DNA of 55,558 nucleotides from a virus, in IMG/VR virus record IMGVR_UViG_3300048821_000030, positions 1 through 55,558 of that record; one strand, given 5' to 3'. Below, in pieces: positions 31,341 through 45,748 of this stretch (position 1 is its first letter; each line of letters begins with the position of its first letter). The position numbers and the translations under genes were made by a program. The notes beneath the pieces are model-generated. The model did no database searches. It was given only the letters and a program-made list of their open reading frames with translations, and was not told where the DNA came from.

Positions 31341-31417
31341 TGGTTGCGAAGGTGGGATTTGAACCCACGACCTATGCGTTATGAGCGCATCGAGCTACCG
31401 GGCTGCTCTACCTCGCA
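31341..31417 (-). tRNA. tRNA-Met (CAT anticodon), CCA encoded
   Basis: On minus, the cloverleaf is complete: acceptor TGCGAGG/CTTCGCA (one G-U pair), D arm GAGC/GCTC, anticodon stem ATGCG/CGCAT with loop CTCATAA, T arm GTGGG/CCCAC with TTCAAAT, discriminator A and encoded CCA. Anticodon CAT means elongator Met, or Ile if lysidine-modified. It lies beside the RNA ligase and kinase-phosphatase genes, which suits a tRNA-repair context. Confidence 0.93.
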
Positions 31418-40833: not shown

Positions 40834-41015
40834 GGTTCCTCGCGTATTCCACTACTCTTGCTTTTACGGTCGCTGCGCTAGGCTTACAAGGCTCGCTACT
40901 GCGTAGCGGCCTTGTGGGGAATGTTTCTGCTTCTGTCATTTGCCTCTGCCTCTGTAATGTGCATCTGCTTTCTGCCTCTGCTTTCTGCTATGTGTGATGT
41001 TACGGTAACGTAACG
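40834..41015 (-). other. 182-bp gap with strong hairpin and amber-interrupted tail
   Basis: A near-perfect hairpin at 40886-40915 (ACAAGGC, CGCTAC / GTAGCG, GCCTTGT; one bulge). Past the TAG of the following gene the same frame stays open for 39 codons (40896-41015), rich in Glu/Ala and Arg (TEAEANDRSR). This looks like a former C-terminus cut by a stop codon. Confidence 0.5.
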
Positions 41016-42041: not shown

Positions 42042-42935
42042 CTATTGCATCTGGGGATCGTTAATTATGTCACTCAGCATCTTGCAGACCTTTACCCCGA
42101 ACTGGTAGCGGCTTGCAAAGTATTTCGCTAAACCTGGGTTCCTGGCTTCACCGTCCTTGGAGAACGCGAAACTGAGGGTTCTGTAGAGGATGTACTGAGT
42201 TAGGCAGTCCGGCACGATGAAGCCGTCTCCCCACCCCATAGTCTGCGCCTGCCGCTGCGCGTAGACACACTCCAAGCTAAGATTGTTCCCCATCCTCGGC
42301 CAGATGCCGACGTTCTGGATGCCGATTTTATCCCTAAACCAAACCCTCGGCTGGCTCAACGCCTGCTGGCTCCATCCGTAGAACATCGAATCGAGATTGC
42401 TTTGTGAAGTCTCCCTCAGCGGATACGACTCGTAAGCCACCCTCACCGGAAACAGCGAATCGGCCGACAGAGCCGTATTCTGAGTCGTTGGGGCCACAAC
42501 CAAATCCGCGATGTTGTACGCCAGCGGAACGTCCGTGTAGAAATCCGAAGTGGCGCTGCTGATGTATGCGATCATCTCCGACTGAGTAAAGAGCGGATCT
42601 GTCGGATACCGCACCGGGAACGTGCTTCCGTTTATCCATTCTCCTGCCGCGTGAGCATTCGCAAAGTTCGCAGTGAAGCTCACACCCACGTTGACAGCCG
42701 TAACCGTAACAACTTCGAGGTTCCCCCCAGTCACTCCGCACACCAACTGAGCGCCGACGTAGAAGCAGACCGTGGGAACCCACACTGCCGGATTGCTGAT
42801 GGGAATCGTTTGAGAACCGGCTGTGATCGCGGCAGGAAATTGCTCGTTGACGACAGGCTGGATCAGCGCGTAGCTCGCGTCCTGGAGCCTATCGATCACG
42901 CGAAGATAACCTGCTCCAACTGTCGGGGATGACAT
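42042..42935 (-). CDS. Virion protein, connector/tail-like
   Basis: 297 residues, start ATG 42935 overlapping the previous stop (TGATG). Beta-rich with an N-terminal helix (LRVIDRLQDASYALIQPVVN). It has the Ala/Gly-rich strands of head-tail connector or tail-tube proteins (VVTVTAVNVGVSFTANFANA) and a helical end with SRYQFGVKVCKMLSDIIND. It lies in the virion block; the family is not identified. Confidence 0.55.
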   Translation of the reverse strand: MSSPTVGAGYLRVIDRLQDASYALIQPVVNEQFPAAITAGSQTIPISNPAVWVPTVCFYVGAQLVCGVTGGNLEVVTVTAVNVGVSFTANFANAHAAGEWINGSTFPVRYPTDPLFTQSEMIAYISSATSDFYTDVPLAYNIADLVVAPTTQNTALSADSLFPVRVAYESYPLRETSQSNLDSMFYGWSQQALSQPRVWFRDKIGIQNVGIWPRMGNNLSLECVYAQRQAQTMGWGDGFIVPDCLTQYILYRTLSFAFSKDGEARNPGLAKYFASRYQFGVKVCKMLSDIINDPQMQ

Positions 42936-43237
42936 CAGTCCTCCCAGTCCGACAAATCAACGGTTTGATTTACGAGAGCGTGCGTGCAGTCTCCGAGAAA
43001 TTGAATCTTGCCGTCTTTTACGAAAGAGTGACACCGAACATCTTTCCCGTCGCTATCAGTTGCTGAAAAGTTAATGCTCGGCATAACTGTTGGGAGATCT
43101 TCATTGCCGTTCCAGTCCCATACGGGCTCAGGGAGAAGCGCCTGACCGTTGATTTTCACGCGAATGCGGTGGTGGTATCCACACCCAGGGCAACTGAATC
43201 CAGCATAGCCCTTATCTGACACGCTCAACTTCGCCAT
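42935..43237 (-). CDS. DUF6527 small zinc-site protein
   Basis: 100 residues with CPGCGYHHRIRV, then W-D-W-N-G-N-x-x-L-P-T-V-M-P-S-I and CHSFVKDGKIQF. This is the DUF6527 pattern found in many phages (often labelled ammonia-monooxygenase-like, without basis). A second, more divergent member is at 8832-9194. Function is unknown. Confidence 0.85.
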   Translation of the reverse strand: MAKLSVSDKGYAGFSCPGCGYHHRIRVKINGQALLPEPVWDWNGNEDLPTVMPSINFSATDSDGKDVRCHSFVKDGKIQFLGDCTHALVNQTVDLSDWED

Positions 43238-43252
43238 GGAATCATTTTCAAC

Positions 43253-43603
43253 CTAGCGGCTTGTGGAGTCTACTGGAATCGGCCAGAGACCGCGTTCTGT
43301 GAGAATTTCCACGTACTCGGCATAGTTCTTCGGATGGAGACAGGCTTCCATATAGAAGGCGCTGCGCACCAACCTGTAAGCCGCCAAGTATCCGATGTAG
43401 TCCTTCTCGTCTAAAAGCCGGTTGAAGGGGCGAATGGCATCGTAGAACTCTCGCTCACGCTTTTCCTCTGCCCTGCCAGTCTCTTCCAGATTTGCCAAAG
43501 CATTCTGCAACATCTCAAGAGTTATAACGCAGCAACCAGCCCCCGAATAATAAGGCAGTGATGTTGAAGACCGCGTGATGCCGCCGTAGGTTTCGTTGCT
43601 CAT
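43253..43603 (-). CDS. Unknown 116-aa protein
   Basis: Starts MSNETYGGITRSSTSLPYYS. Helical central part (NALANLEETGRAEEKREREF) and DEKDYIGYLAAY, ending with YVEILTERGLWPIP. No known motif. It follows the homing-endonuclease element; no strong ribosome site is seen. Confidence 0.5.
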   Translation of the reverse strand: MSNETYGGITRSSTSLPYYSGAGCCVITLEMLQNALANLEETGRAEEKREREFYDAIRPFNRLLDEKDYIGYLAAYRLVRSAFYMEACLHPKNYAEYVEILTERGLWPIPVDSTSR

Positions 43604-43618
43604 GCCTACATCATATCG

Positions 43619-43667
43619 CTATTCTATTGTTTTGGGGTTCACCTGGCTGCGGCCGCCGTAGGCCGAA
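43619..43667 (-). pseudogene. Displaced tail of the 44424-45155 gene
   Basis: Encodes SSAYGGRSQVNPKTIE then TAG. The gene upstream of the endonuclease ends SSAYGARSAVNSKTVE then TAG. Twelve of the 16 residues are identical, yet no identical residue uses the same codon in both. It looks like the original 3' end, displaced by insertion of the endonuclease with its own version. Confidence 0.75.
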
Positions 43668-44363
43668 CTATGCGACCCGAGCAAATGCTCCGTGAAACTC
43701 ACTAGCAGCCTTGCAGTAAGCAGCATAGGCCAATTCAGGGGTCGGGAATAGTCCAAGATACACTTTCTTTCCGTTGACGCTAATTTGTGCAGTCCACTTC
43801 CCCGTAGCTTTATGCCACGAGACGCCTTTATAACCACTTTTGTTTGTAACCGGCTTCTTTGTATTCTGCATATTTTGGGCGGAAGATGCAGGTCGGACAT
43901 TATCCCTTCGGTTGTCGAGAGTATTGCGATTCTTGTGATCTGGCTTAATAATTCCAGCAACTTCTCTGTGCATGTAAATATGGGCTTTATGGTTGCCGTC
44001 CGCGTGACGAACCGCATAGTAGCAATTTCCCTTTTTGTCCTGTTTCGCAAACCATTTTGACCTCATCAGCCAGATGTAATCAACCTCATCAACTATGGTC
44101 CAGAGTCCGCGAGTGAGAGGGATGAGGCGGCAATACACTCCGTCTATCTTGAAGGGAAGGGCATCTACAATTATCGGCCTGATTTTGCTTTGATGACCTA
44201 GCACGTAGCGGCACGGATAGCCCTGTTTGACGCCGAATTTACGGCTTGTCATTGTGCAGATTTTCGTCTGCTCGCCACACTCGCAATGGCAGTTGCCGTA
44301 ACCAACTTTGCAATTAGTTCCGCAAAATATGCATGTTGGTACAATTGCTTCGAGGGGTGTCAT
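43668..44363 (-). CDS. HNH/AP2-domain homing endonuclease
   Basis: 231 residues from ATG 44363 (GGAG 6 nt upstream). N-terminus has a zinc ribbon (CIFCGTNC and CHCECG). The HNH core reads HREVAGIIKPDHKNRNTLDN and RRDNVRPASSAQNMQNTKK; the end has the AP2 DNA-binding domain (GYKGVSWHKATGKWTAQISV, AAYCKAASEFHG). Such proteins cut DNA lacking them and spread by repair. It is flanked by two versions of one gene tail, described in the findings. Confidence 0.88.
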   Translation of the reverse strand: MTPLEAIVPTCIFCGTNCKVGYGNCHCECGEQTKICTMTSRKFGVKQGYPCRYVLGHQSKIRPIIVDALPFKIDGVYCRLIPLTRGLWTIVDEVDYIWLMRSKWFAKQDKKGNCYYAVRHADGNHKAHIYMHREVAGIIKPDHKNRNTLDNRRDNVRPASSAQNMQNTKKPVTNKSGYKGVSWHKATGKWTAQISVNGKKVYLGLFPTPELAYAAYCKAASEFHGAFARVA

Positions 44364-44423
44364 AGTCGCTCCAATCCAGCGATGAGGCTTGCCGGGAGGT
44401 CGCACTCCCTGACACCCTTTATT

Positions 44424-45155
44424 CTACTCCACGGTCTTAGAATTTACTGCCGATCTTGCCCCATACGCAGACGAGAAAACCAGCGAGTCTAAGCGGTTTT
44501 GGAAGAGGCTGAGGGCCTTAACTTCGGCGAGATATTCCTCGAAAACCACAGACGCCTCTTCTGCTTCTTGACCGCCTTCTTTAGCTCTGAGTTGTGCCGC
44601 CGCGTACTTGGACAGCAAATCGGAGAACTCACTTTGCAATGGAATGGTCTCATTGCCTGTTAGCGGCCTTGGGGTGTTGATCGGGCAAGCGATGAAGTCA
44701 ATGACCACGTTAGCCTCCGCGACCAATTGCGGATAGATGAAGAACCCCGAAACACCCAACGGCCCCCAACCGATGATCTGTGTCCCCGGTGTCATCTGGC
44801 CCCAGCCGGGGTTCATCTGATCCAAGCCACTCAGAGAGGTCTTCCTAATGGGATATGGCGCTTTCATCCTCAACGGCGCCACAATGCCCACAGGGACCGT
44901 AGGGCTCGCGTAGAGGCCCCCTCCTGACGCCTGAAGGCTGAACCACGTCGTATTCGCTGCCAAGGTCACCTGGACGCTCACAAGCTGCACTACGCCGGTT
45001 ATGAGAGACGCTTCGAAGATCCCGTCAACCATCGCCGGATAGACCTCGCCGGTCAGCGACCAGAAAATTGGTCCAGATGGAGTAGCCGAAGGCAGGGCCT
45101 CCTCAACTCTGGACAGCACATCCGGCAACAAATCCGAGAGTACCAGTAGCGCCAC
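44424..45155 (-). CDS. Virion protein, host gene of the endonuclease insertion
   Basis: 243 residues from GTG 45155 (AAAGG upstream). Starts MALLVLSDLLPDVLSRVEEA; the middle is beta-rich (VQVTLAANTTWFSLQASGGG), the end helical with KYAAAQLRAKEGGQEAEEAS. A structural role (head-tail connector or tail completion) is inferred from its place among virion genes. The terminator of the upstream gene lies only 18 bp before the start. The last 16 codons appear again downstream of the endonuclease. Confidence 0.65.
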   Translation of the reverse strand: MALLVLSDLLPDVLSRVEEALPSATPSGPIFWSLTGEVYPAMVDGIFEASLITGVVQLVSVQVTLAANTTWFSLQASGGGLYASPTVPVGIVAPLRMKAPYPIRKTSLSGLDQMNPGWGQMTPGTQIIGWGPLGVSGFFIYPQLVAEANVVIDFIACPINTPRPLTGNETIPLQSEFSDLLSKYAAAQLRAKEGGQEAEEASVVFEEYLAEVKALSLFQNRLDSLVFSSAYGARSAVNSKTVE

Positions 45156-45172
45156 GGTTCCCTTTCAAAAGC

Positions 45173-45197
45173 AAAGCCGCCCAATGAGAGCGGCCTT
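45173..45197 (-). terminator. Rho-independent terminator (minus) after the 45221-45748 gene
   Basis: AAGGCCGC pairs with GCGGCTTT on minus (8 bp, one G-U), 9-nt loop, then GCTTTTG. Palindrome copy 20 lies between the stop codon and the hairpin. Confidence 0.7.
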
Positions 45198-45204
45198 GAC
45201 TTGG

Positions 45205-45221
45205 ATTCCAAAATTTGGAAT
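45205..45221 (-). repeat. 17-bp palindrome copy 20
   Basis: Full perfect palindrome touching the TGA of the 45221-45748 gene and followed by the terminator. Confidence 0.9.
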
Positions 45222-45748
45222 CAGATGATGATTGCCGCCGCACCCATCTTGTCATTTAGCGTCCCGGCAACCCACATATCACTTGTCCTGATGGCGTTCC
45301 ATTGTTCGACACCGAAATTGTCAGACCCACTAACTAAAATCTCTTGAAAAGCACTGCCTCCACCTACATTCGTAACAGTGCTGTCAGAGCCTTCCCAGAT
45401 GCTCCCTGAATTATTCGTGATGTTGTTCATCCTGAGAACAGCGCAAGCAATACTCAGAACGATCTGCGTCCCACTCGGCCAGTTCGATACCGGAGCATCG
45501 CCTTCAGATATGCAAGAGAGAACGTTGGTGCTGGTATTGACTGCATTGACCATCAAGCAGTTCGTCGGACTCGATCCACCAAAACCGAGAACGATGCGGT
45601 CGCCTATTTGGTACTGGGAGGCTTTCGCAACCGGCACGAAGTAGAATCCGTTCGGCTGCTTCAAGTTCTTGAAAGCCGCAGTCAGCTTGTCTCCGAAGAG
45701 AGGCTGTGCGGCTCCGGTGATAGTTTGTAGTCCCCAACTTCTGATCAT
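45221..45748 (-). CDS. Small virion protein, decoration-like
   Basis: 175 residues, beta-rich: GDRIVLGFGGSSPTNCLMVN, SGTQIVLSIACAVLRMNNIT, and a final hydrophobic stretch MGAAAIII. Starts MIRSWGLQTITGAAQPLFGD, overlapping the previous gene by 4 bp. Resembles small minor capsid or decoration proteins by composition only. Confidence 0.55.
   Translation of the reverse strand: MIRSWGLQTITGAAQPLFGDKLTAAFKNLKQPNGFYFVPVAKASQYQIGDRIVLGFGGSSPTNCLMVNAVNTSTNVLSCISEGDAPVSNWPSGTQIVLSIACAVLRMNNITNNSGSIWEGSDSTVTNVGGGSAFQEILVSGSDNFGVEQWNAIRTSDMWVAGTLNDKMGAAAIII

Follow-up and report, generated by a model that had tools for sequence, protein, structure and literature searches.

Why should a free-standing homing endonuclease gene lie between two versions of the end of one and the same gene? 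The question is raised by a viral DNA of 55,558 nucleotides (IMG/VR record IMGVR_UViG_3300048821_000030, positions 1 to 55,558, here called the window), where the minus strand carries, in order, a phage structural gene, its last codons (the proximal tail), a short leader, an HNH/AP2 endonuclease gene and a second, distal tail. We conclude that this locus (site 1) is very probably a tail-replacing homing element, that is, a free-standing HNH/AP2 gene travelling with a diverged, functional 3′ end of its target gene. The same order recurs in a rhizobial phage-related gene (site 2), a portal gene (site 3) and, in cultured Salmonella phages, the spanin gene (site 4), and the endonucleases of all four sites match PHROG 99. 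The features at site 1 are the following.

44424..45155, minus strand: host gene, encoding a phage structural (virion) protein of 243 aa with a weak PHROG 399 match; orthologs in loci L003-L006 and L034-L037
44424..44595, minus strand: 3′ portion of the host gene that was exchanged; the window and L003 share 118 of 169 coding bases here
44424..44474, minus strand: proximal (putative replacement) tail, SSAYGARSAVNSKTVE plus stop, completing the host protein
44355..44419, minus strand: leader of 65 nt, identical in the window and L003, a predicted four-way-junction RNA containing the Shine-Dalgarno-like GGAG and the start codon of the endonuclease
43668..44363, minus strand: HNH/AP2 homing endonuclease gene, 231 aa, PHROG 99
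43619..43669, minus strand: distal (putatively native, stranded) tail, SSAYGGRSQVNPKTIE and stop; the endonuclease stop covers its first two bases
43253..43603, minus strand: open reading frame (ORF) of 116 aa, a cargo that differs between alleles, L003 having a 450-aa ORF at this place
42935..43237, minus strand: gene for a DUF6527 protein, inside the exchanged island
42433..44595, no strand: island diverged between the window and L003, flanked by nearly identical phage DNA

The endonuclease gene opens with an ATG at 44363, 60 bases past the host-gene stop, and its own stop TAG (43668-43670) shares two bases with AGT, the first codon of the distal tail. A sequence-only reading of the window had claimed a second tail beyond the endonuclease with 12 of 16 residues matching and every one of those 12 codons different; we confirm this (0 of 12 codons identical), and the location given for that tail is right, its true extent being 43619-43669 rather than 43619-43667. 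The similarity score of the two tails is 60, against a maximum of 45 among 200 shuffles. By eye, the host-gene stop also overlaps a TAGAAT.

The endonuclease itself has an AP2 match above the Pfam cut-off (E 9e-11), a weak HNH_3 match below it, a match to PHROG 99 ‘HNH endonuclease’ at 1e-40 and a cysteine-rich N-terminus seen in its sequence. It stands outside any detected intron or intein, and its presence or absence at the insertion sites is confirmed to be polymorphic among relatives. A second carrier allele at site 1 (L002/L003), likewise arranged tail-endonuclease-tail, shares 530 of 693 endonuclease bases with the window (a difference at 24%), and of the 231 codons 88 differ synonymously and 37 by replacement, an excess which indicates that the site-1 enzyme is under purifying selection.

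Which of the two tails is native, and what did the insertion replace? The replacement can be read off exactly at site 4, where the endonuclease follows the i-spanin gene in Salmonella phages seszw, LPSTLL and SB28 (L187, L199 and L200 among the spanin loci) and is absent from the site in Shigella phage Sf11, Salmonella phages Skate and gmqsjt-1 and E. coli phage Bas78. Bas78 offers a clean empty site: as far as base 1774 in each, the SB28 and Bas78 loci agree at 90%; 783 nt of SB28 (1775-2557), made up of the new gene end and the endonuclease, then take the place of 151 nt of Bas78 (1775-1925), and from SB28 2558 onward the two agree again, at 91% over 249 nt. This resumed homology starts 20 bases before the SB28 endonuclease stop and continues through the old spanin stop, so that the endonuclease of SB28 takes its last codons from the native spanin sequence. 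In SB28 and LPSTLL the remnant has the same residues as Skate and Bas78, REAGL-CEAQYNSLRNKKAP; in seszw the last residues are different. The new end, AGLTCQKQYESLIK, is protein-like to the ends of the endonuclease-free gmqsjt-1 and Sf11 (same residues AGLTCQKQYESL), so that two phages lacking the endonuclease carry proximal-like last residues here, mostly in other codons (9 of 13 shared codons differ from gmqsjt-1). Because of this protein likeness, and because in blastn the 206-nt SB28 end finds a 50-54-nt match of 76-78% in the gmqsjt-1 and Sf11 ends and none in those of Bas78 and Skate, the evidence points to capture of the replacement spanin end from another allele. An o-spanin frame (annotated in Skate) is nested in the same region; its start and 88-aa length are kept in seven of seven phages with its second half replaced in the carriers, and the swap preserves both overlapping frames. 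At the DNA level, relatives of the SB28 endonuclease were seen in Salmonella phages only (48 phage records), many of them clones of seszw. By eye, the spanin stop TGA of the three carriers lies in TGATATAAT, which resembles an extended -10 promoter ahead of the endonuclease.

Site 2, which with site 4 gives the strongest case for a native distal tail, is locus L087 in IMG/VR contig 637000192_000005, taken as a prophage, where the gene ends in NSGGGKTRLHNRSIVGFSIVNPHG and is followed by the endonuclease and then, at the endonuclease stop, by NSGRGKTRVHPRSIVGFQIVDPHG. Of 296 genomes in the family of a Bradyrhizobium strain, 50 have the host gene, and neither a second tail nor an endonuclease stands behind it in 31 relatives (30 fetched loci and the Bradyrhizobium phage L095). 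Two stray resemblances were judged chance: an endonuclease-like match in L109 (E 1.7e-4, 38 residues, opposite strand, more than 1 kb from the gene end) and, in L114, a stretch resembling the tail (40% over 20 residues) that lies ahead of the gene rather than behind it. Compared with L097, the nearest endonuclease-free relative, the L087 remnant is identical at 58 of 72 nt and 15 of 21 codons and the proximal tail at 44 of 72 and 6 of 17, while the 75 codons preceding the tail have 34 of 57 codons identical; the more distant L100 and L104, with 43 and 39 of 72 nt shared with the remnant and 46 and 40 with the proximal tail, show no such preference.

At site 1, the structural gene was found in six IMG/VR loci and searches with its flanking genes added four more distant ones, as well as a near-identical contig (L039) that stops short of the gene. 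L001 is 99.99% identical to the window over 8.6 kb. Seven of the loci (L004, L005, L006, L034, L036 and the distant L035 and L037) are free of the endonuclease (0/7 with four endonuclease queries at E 1e-3, the carrier controls being positive in 7/7), and each has a single tail. The two arrangements that the sequence-only reading had named as contrary to it, tandem tails and a proximal tail joined to the next gene without an endonuclease, both occur in 0/7 of these orthologs, the tails of L035 and L037 being too distant for meaningful alignment. Its expectation that such relatives carry the distal type of tail held as well: the nearest, L004, is closer to the window remnant (35 of 48 nt, 8 of 13 codons identical) than to the window proximal tail (26 of 48, 2 of 10), and the two L003 tails compare with L004 in the same way (remnant 38 of 48 and 7 of 14; proximal tail 21 of 48 and 0 of 8). 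The residue after a conserved Asn is Pro in the tails of L004, L005, L006, L034 and L036 and in both remnants, and Ser in both proximal tails. The exchange is local, which fits a homing element: the window and L003 show zero mismatches from 45900 to 44596 and, over 5 kb upstream, 98-100% identity per 100 bases except in a second, smaller patch of 89-99% at 49155-48656; they diverge through the island, and from 42433 on they are identical once more as far as the comparison reached, near 41000. Cargo in the island varies, the DUF6527 genes included.

Site 3 is the portal gene of L144, in a genome of the same class as that of site 2. Here the portal end YDAEQVDAQIAGDKERER... precedes the endonuclease and HDAEQVDAEIAADQARER... 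follows it. The AEIAAD of the remnant recurs in L167, L169, L170, L171 and L183, with the variants AEIAED in L172 and KEIAAD in L173; each of these seven relatives has a single tail, and 0 of 19 portal loci has an endonuclease match. L183 agrees with L144 at 97 of 108 nt over the 36 codons before the tail, at 60 of 84 in the remnant and at 54 of 84 in the proximal tail, and it is at this site that the distal tail may least firmly be called native.

These arrangements suggest how such an element could spread. We infer that the endonuclease would cut in the native end, near the close of the target gene, in an endonuclease-free phage, and that repair from the carrier genome would copy in the replacement end with its stop, the leader and the endonuclease. 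The host protein would thereby stay whole and the recipient's own end would remain downstream as a presumably silent remnant. The new allele would escape cleavage, and its loss by recombination between the tails would be unlikely, because the replacement end and the remnant share almost no long identical stretch; the longest measures 7, 8, 16 and 6 bp at sites 1 to 4.

Whether the codons of the replacement end differ by more than ordinary divergence was assessed by taking the expected identity from the phage's own codon usage (for sites 2-4 from small samples of the genes themselves) and treating codons as independent draws, as at saturation. For the window tails, 0 of 12 identical codons compare with 4.1 expected (P(0) = 0.0046, an optimistic value, as this pair was chosen by eye). 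A comparison set of 1221 overlapping windows of 16 codons, each with 10 or more conserved residues and drawn from all pairs of five orthologous genes with the last 16 columns removed, contained none without an identical codon. The gene cores of the window and L004 or L005 have 45-50% identical codons, and the drop at site 1 is confined to the tail: against L004, 17 of 33 codons are identical in the 44 codons directly upstream and 2 of 10 in the proximal tail. Single sites range from 7 of 19 identical codons in L144 (P 0.03) to 6 of 19 in L087 (P 0.32) and 2 of 8 in SB28 (P 0.33). Pooled over the window, L087, L144 and SB28, with L003 left out as the same site as the window, 15 of 58 shared-residue codons are identical against 25.9 expected (P 0.0012). 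The proximal tails have thus diverged at least as far as saturation allows, and at site 1 somewhat beyond. The sister allele L003 gives a weaker result than the window (2 of 10 codons identical, P = 0.21), and at the portal site 16 bp are the same in both tails.

Would mere divergence of a captured foreign allele then suffice? In such an account the element is the same, its immunity coming from the insertion that interrupts the target, and we think it could as well be right as wrong. The unremarkable codon tests of L003, L087 and the spanin tails and the 16-bp stretch of the portal gene speak for it, as does the SB28 end with its match in gmqsjt-1 and Sf11 and none in Bas78 or Skate; the pooled deficit of identical codons and the restriction of the site-1 drop to the tail count against it. 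Of the earlier proposal that the endonuclease inserts at the 3′ end of a gene together with a restored tail, both the insertion and the supply of a restored end by the element are supported at four independent gene sites, least so at the portal site; recoding for resistance would go beyond this, the donor tail looking like a captured diverged allele and 16 bp staying identical at the portal site. The ‘recoded’ tail is better read as an end taken from such an allele, and selection for cleavage resistance behind the codon changes is plausible.

How frequent the arrangement is was surveyed in 106 endonuclease loci (batches of 12, 41, 18, 4, 19 and 12), of which 103 were testable, L053, L083 and L088 having no testable upstream gene end. 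L009 was omitted as the same contig as L002, and redundancy is common among the loci (L071-L074, for instance, or L127 and L145, which are one place), so that 106 overstates their independence. Tail duplication was found in five (L010, L011, L087, L144 and L187), representing four sites, with L187 (score 43) retained because endonuclease-free relatives carry its remnant. The shuffle P is lenient, in that the best of several frames and upstream ends was taken and only the best pair shuffled. Ten further loci with P ≤0.005 (L045, L052, L064, L077, L136, L142, L143, L154, L160 and L191) were rejected as gapped, stop-crossing, out-of-frame or low-scoring, L052 having scored 71, and three (L152, L163 and L166), also at P ≤0.005, were rejected on score alone. 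Apart from this, Vibrio phage PS25B.1 (MW824406.1, L195 at ~1468-2049) has an endonuclease-like open frame after its terminase gene, where no gene is annotated.

Several of these observations weigh against tail replacement as we read it. With 5 of 106 loci positive, it is a minority architecture among the endonucleases surveyed. The closest endonuclease-free relatives at site 1 are only ~70% identical, so the empty site there is inferred rather than exact. Against the distant L005 and L006 the contrast between the window tails is small or reversed (remnant 26 and 21, proximal tail 27 and 26 of 48), so that at site 1 it is chiefly L004, together with protein features, that marks the distal tail as native. 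In the portal gene the remnant exceeds the proximal tail only modestly in its likeness to the endonuclease-free L183 and L169 (60-61 against 52-54 of 84 nt), and the two tails keep their 16-bp identical stretch. In L087, 6 of 19 codons are unchanged.

Other explanations would do without a tail-replacing element altogether. One is modular recombination of the ordinary kind, or a duplication by illegitimate recombination where two genes meet, with the endonuclease as a passenger; the variable downstream cargo speaks for it. L005 and L006, free of the endonuclease and nearly identical upstream, become mosaic within the same host gene (from ~5330 of each locus), which makes the gene end a recombination hot spot even where no endonuclease is present. 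We nonetheless regard this explanation as improbable, given the same order and the same endonuclease family at four unrelated genes and a spanin exchange that begins within the gene and stops at the junction of endonuclease and remnant. An assembly chimera of two metagenomic strains is more improbable still: the site-1 contigs do come from IMG/VR metagenomes, and L006, which may itself be such a chimera, has a frameshift near the gene end at its mosaic joint, yet the arrangement is found in separate contigs (window/L001 and L002/L003, with 24% of endonuclease bases different) and in the sequenced isolates seszw, LPSTLL and SB28. Equally hard to credit is a self-splicing intron or bypass joining the upstream gene to the distal tail. 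That tail is indeed native-like and directly follows the insert, but the proximal tail and its stop already finish the protein at all four sites, and a search of 43200-45400 against Rfam at E up to 5 gave no intron match and only a Leu_leader below its gathering score (45169-45237).

The host protein of site 1 proved hard to place. Its AlphaFold model has a mean pLDDT of 48.5, with the tail below 50, and a profile search against solved structures gave a best match of merely E 0.095. The gene has no match in reference phages and no confirmed related locus in GTDB genomes, and megablast of 10 kb of the window against phages gave no match. The phage genome also carries a tRNA-Met gene (CAT anticodon) at window 31341-31417.

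The 65-nt leader is identical in the window and L003, next to an endonuclease 76% and a gene end 70% identical. RNA structures over the ribosome binding site have been described for I-TevI, segB and Aeh1 mobE (PMC2988022). A third full-length relative of the endonuclease (L054; 53% protein identity), which sits behind a different gene with no tail copy detected there, shares the leader (L054:2952-3011), conserving GGCAAGCCT and ATCGC; its second hairpin differs in sequence yet pairs (GGGAG/CUCCC vs GGUGUU/AGCACC). Folded separately, the window and L054 leaders are both predicted to form a four-way junction of one kind, its closing stem taking in the UG of the start codon; the fold energies are only mildly below those of shuffles (z -1.6 and -2.1, from few sequences). 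The core pattern GGCAAGCCTNATCGC occurs in 16 of 143 loci, all copies of the window, L003 and L054 alleles, and an Rfam search of the window leader region found nothing over threshold. As a widespread motif the leader was rejected: a degenerate pattern gave 17 stretches, of which 3 were known and 14 judged chance on reading. The leader around the endonuclease start is conserved and probably structured, and by its fold, its conservation and analogy with the T4 hairpins it may fold over the start codon and limit translation.

Free-standing homing genes are usually held to need a harmless site, an intron or an intein to enter essential genes, and in phage Aeh1 the HNH homing gene mobE lies inside nrdA, splitting the gene in two with no rescue known. 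In synthetic home-and-rescue and cleave-and-rescue drives a recoded target coding sequence travels with the nuclease; these are engineered, CRISPR-based and made in insects, unlike the phage elements. The closest natural parallel is in the mobile ORFs (mORFs) of fungal mitochondria, in which the available text describes inserted C-termini for Allomyces atp6 and for atp6, atp9, cox2 and nad3 of Glomus sp., the inserted ends having diverged in their codons (inserted and native atp6 ends share 63.5% of nucleotides and 91% of amino acids) (PMC3630166). There, as here, a nuclease ORF lies between an in-frame foreign end upstream and a native end downstream, and the downstream copy resembles element-free relatives, a likeness weaker at our portal site; the fungal nucleases are, by the same text, LAGLIDADG or GIY-YIG enzymes in organelle genomes, not phage HNH/AP2 (PMC3630166). 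In the phage and prophage elements there is, besides, a leader that is conserved at one site, and at another the rescue covers two reading frames. In its logic the design is that of the fungal mORFs, with another enzyme family and genome type, and the novelty claimed for a free-standing HNH gene may hold among phage HNH genes and does not extend to the fungal elements, which do likewise (PMC3630166). No phage account of a replacement tail was found in searches of an open-access library; subscription journals could hold one. The T4 seg and mob genes are similarly free-standing, of HNH type (mob) and subject to co-conversion of flanks, and the accessible part of their account describes no replacement gene tail or remnant (PMC2988022). 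The T5-like phages Shivani and phiR201 have a GIY-YIG gene where their i-spanin gene ends, and the extreme C-terminus of the spanin is changed; the enzyme family differs from that of our spanin site, the o-spanin is separated rather than nested, and the portion of the source available names no replacement tail (PMC6139136). In contrast to the site logic of tail-replacing elements, the HNN-AP2 genes of Xanthomonas phages are described, in the part of the source available, as lacking conserved flanks, their spread being probably independent of sequence (PMC2248197).

It is tempting to see in these four sites a general phage class of natural ‘home-and-rescue’ drives, in which HNH/AP2 genes capture diverged ends of target alleles, kept because such ends are both cleavage-proof and unable to recombine with the native one. 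Neither an intron nor an intein would then be needed to enter essential genes, and even two overlapping genes could be rescued together; we hold this tentatively, with doubt slightly outweighing belief. A travelling replacement gene end would be another route into essential genes, would account for abrupt changes of phage protein C-termini beside HNH genes, and would be a natural counterpart to synthetic rescue drives. It could be tested in cultured phages, with SB28, LPSTLL and seszw as carriers and E. coli phage Bas78 and Salmonella phage Skate providing the empty site.
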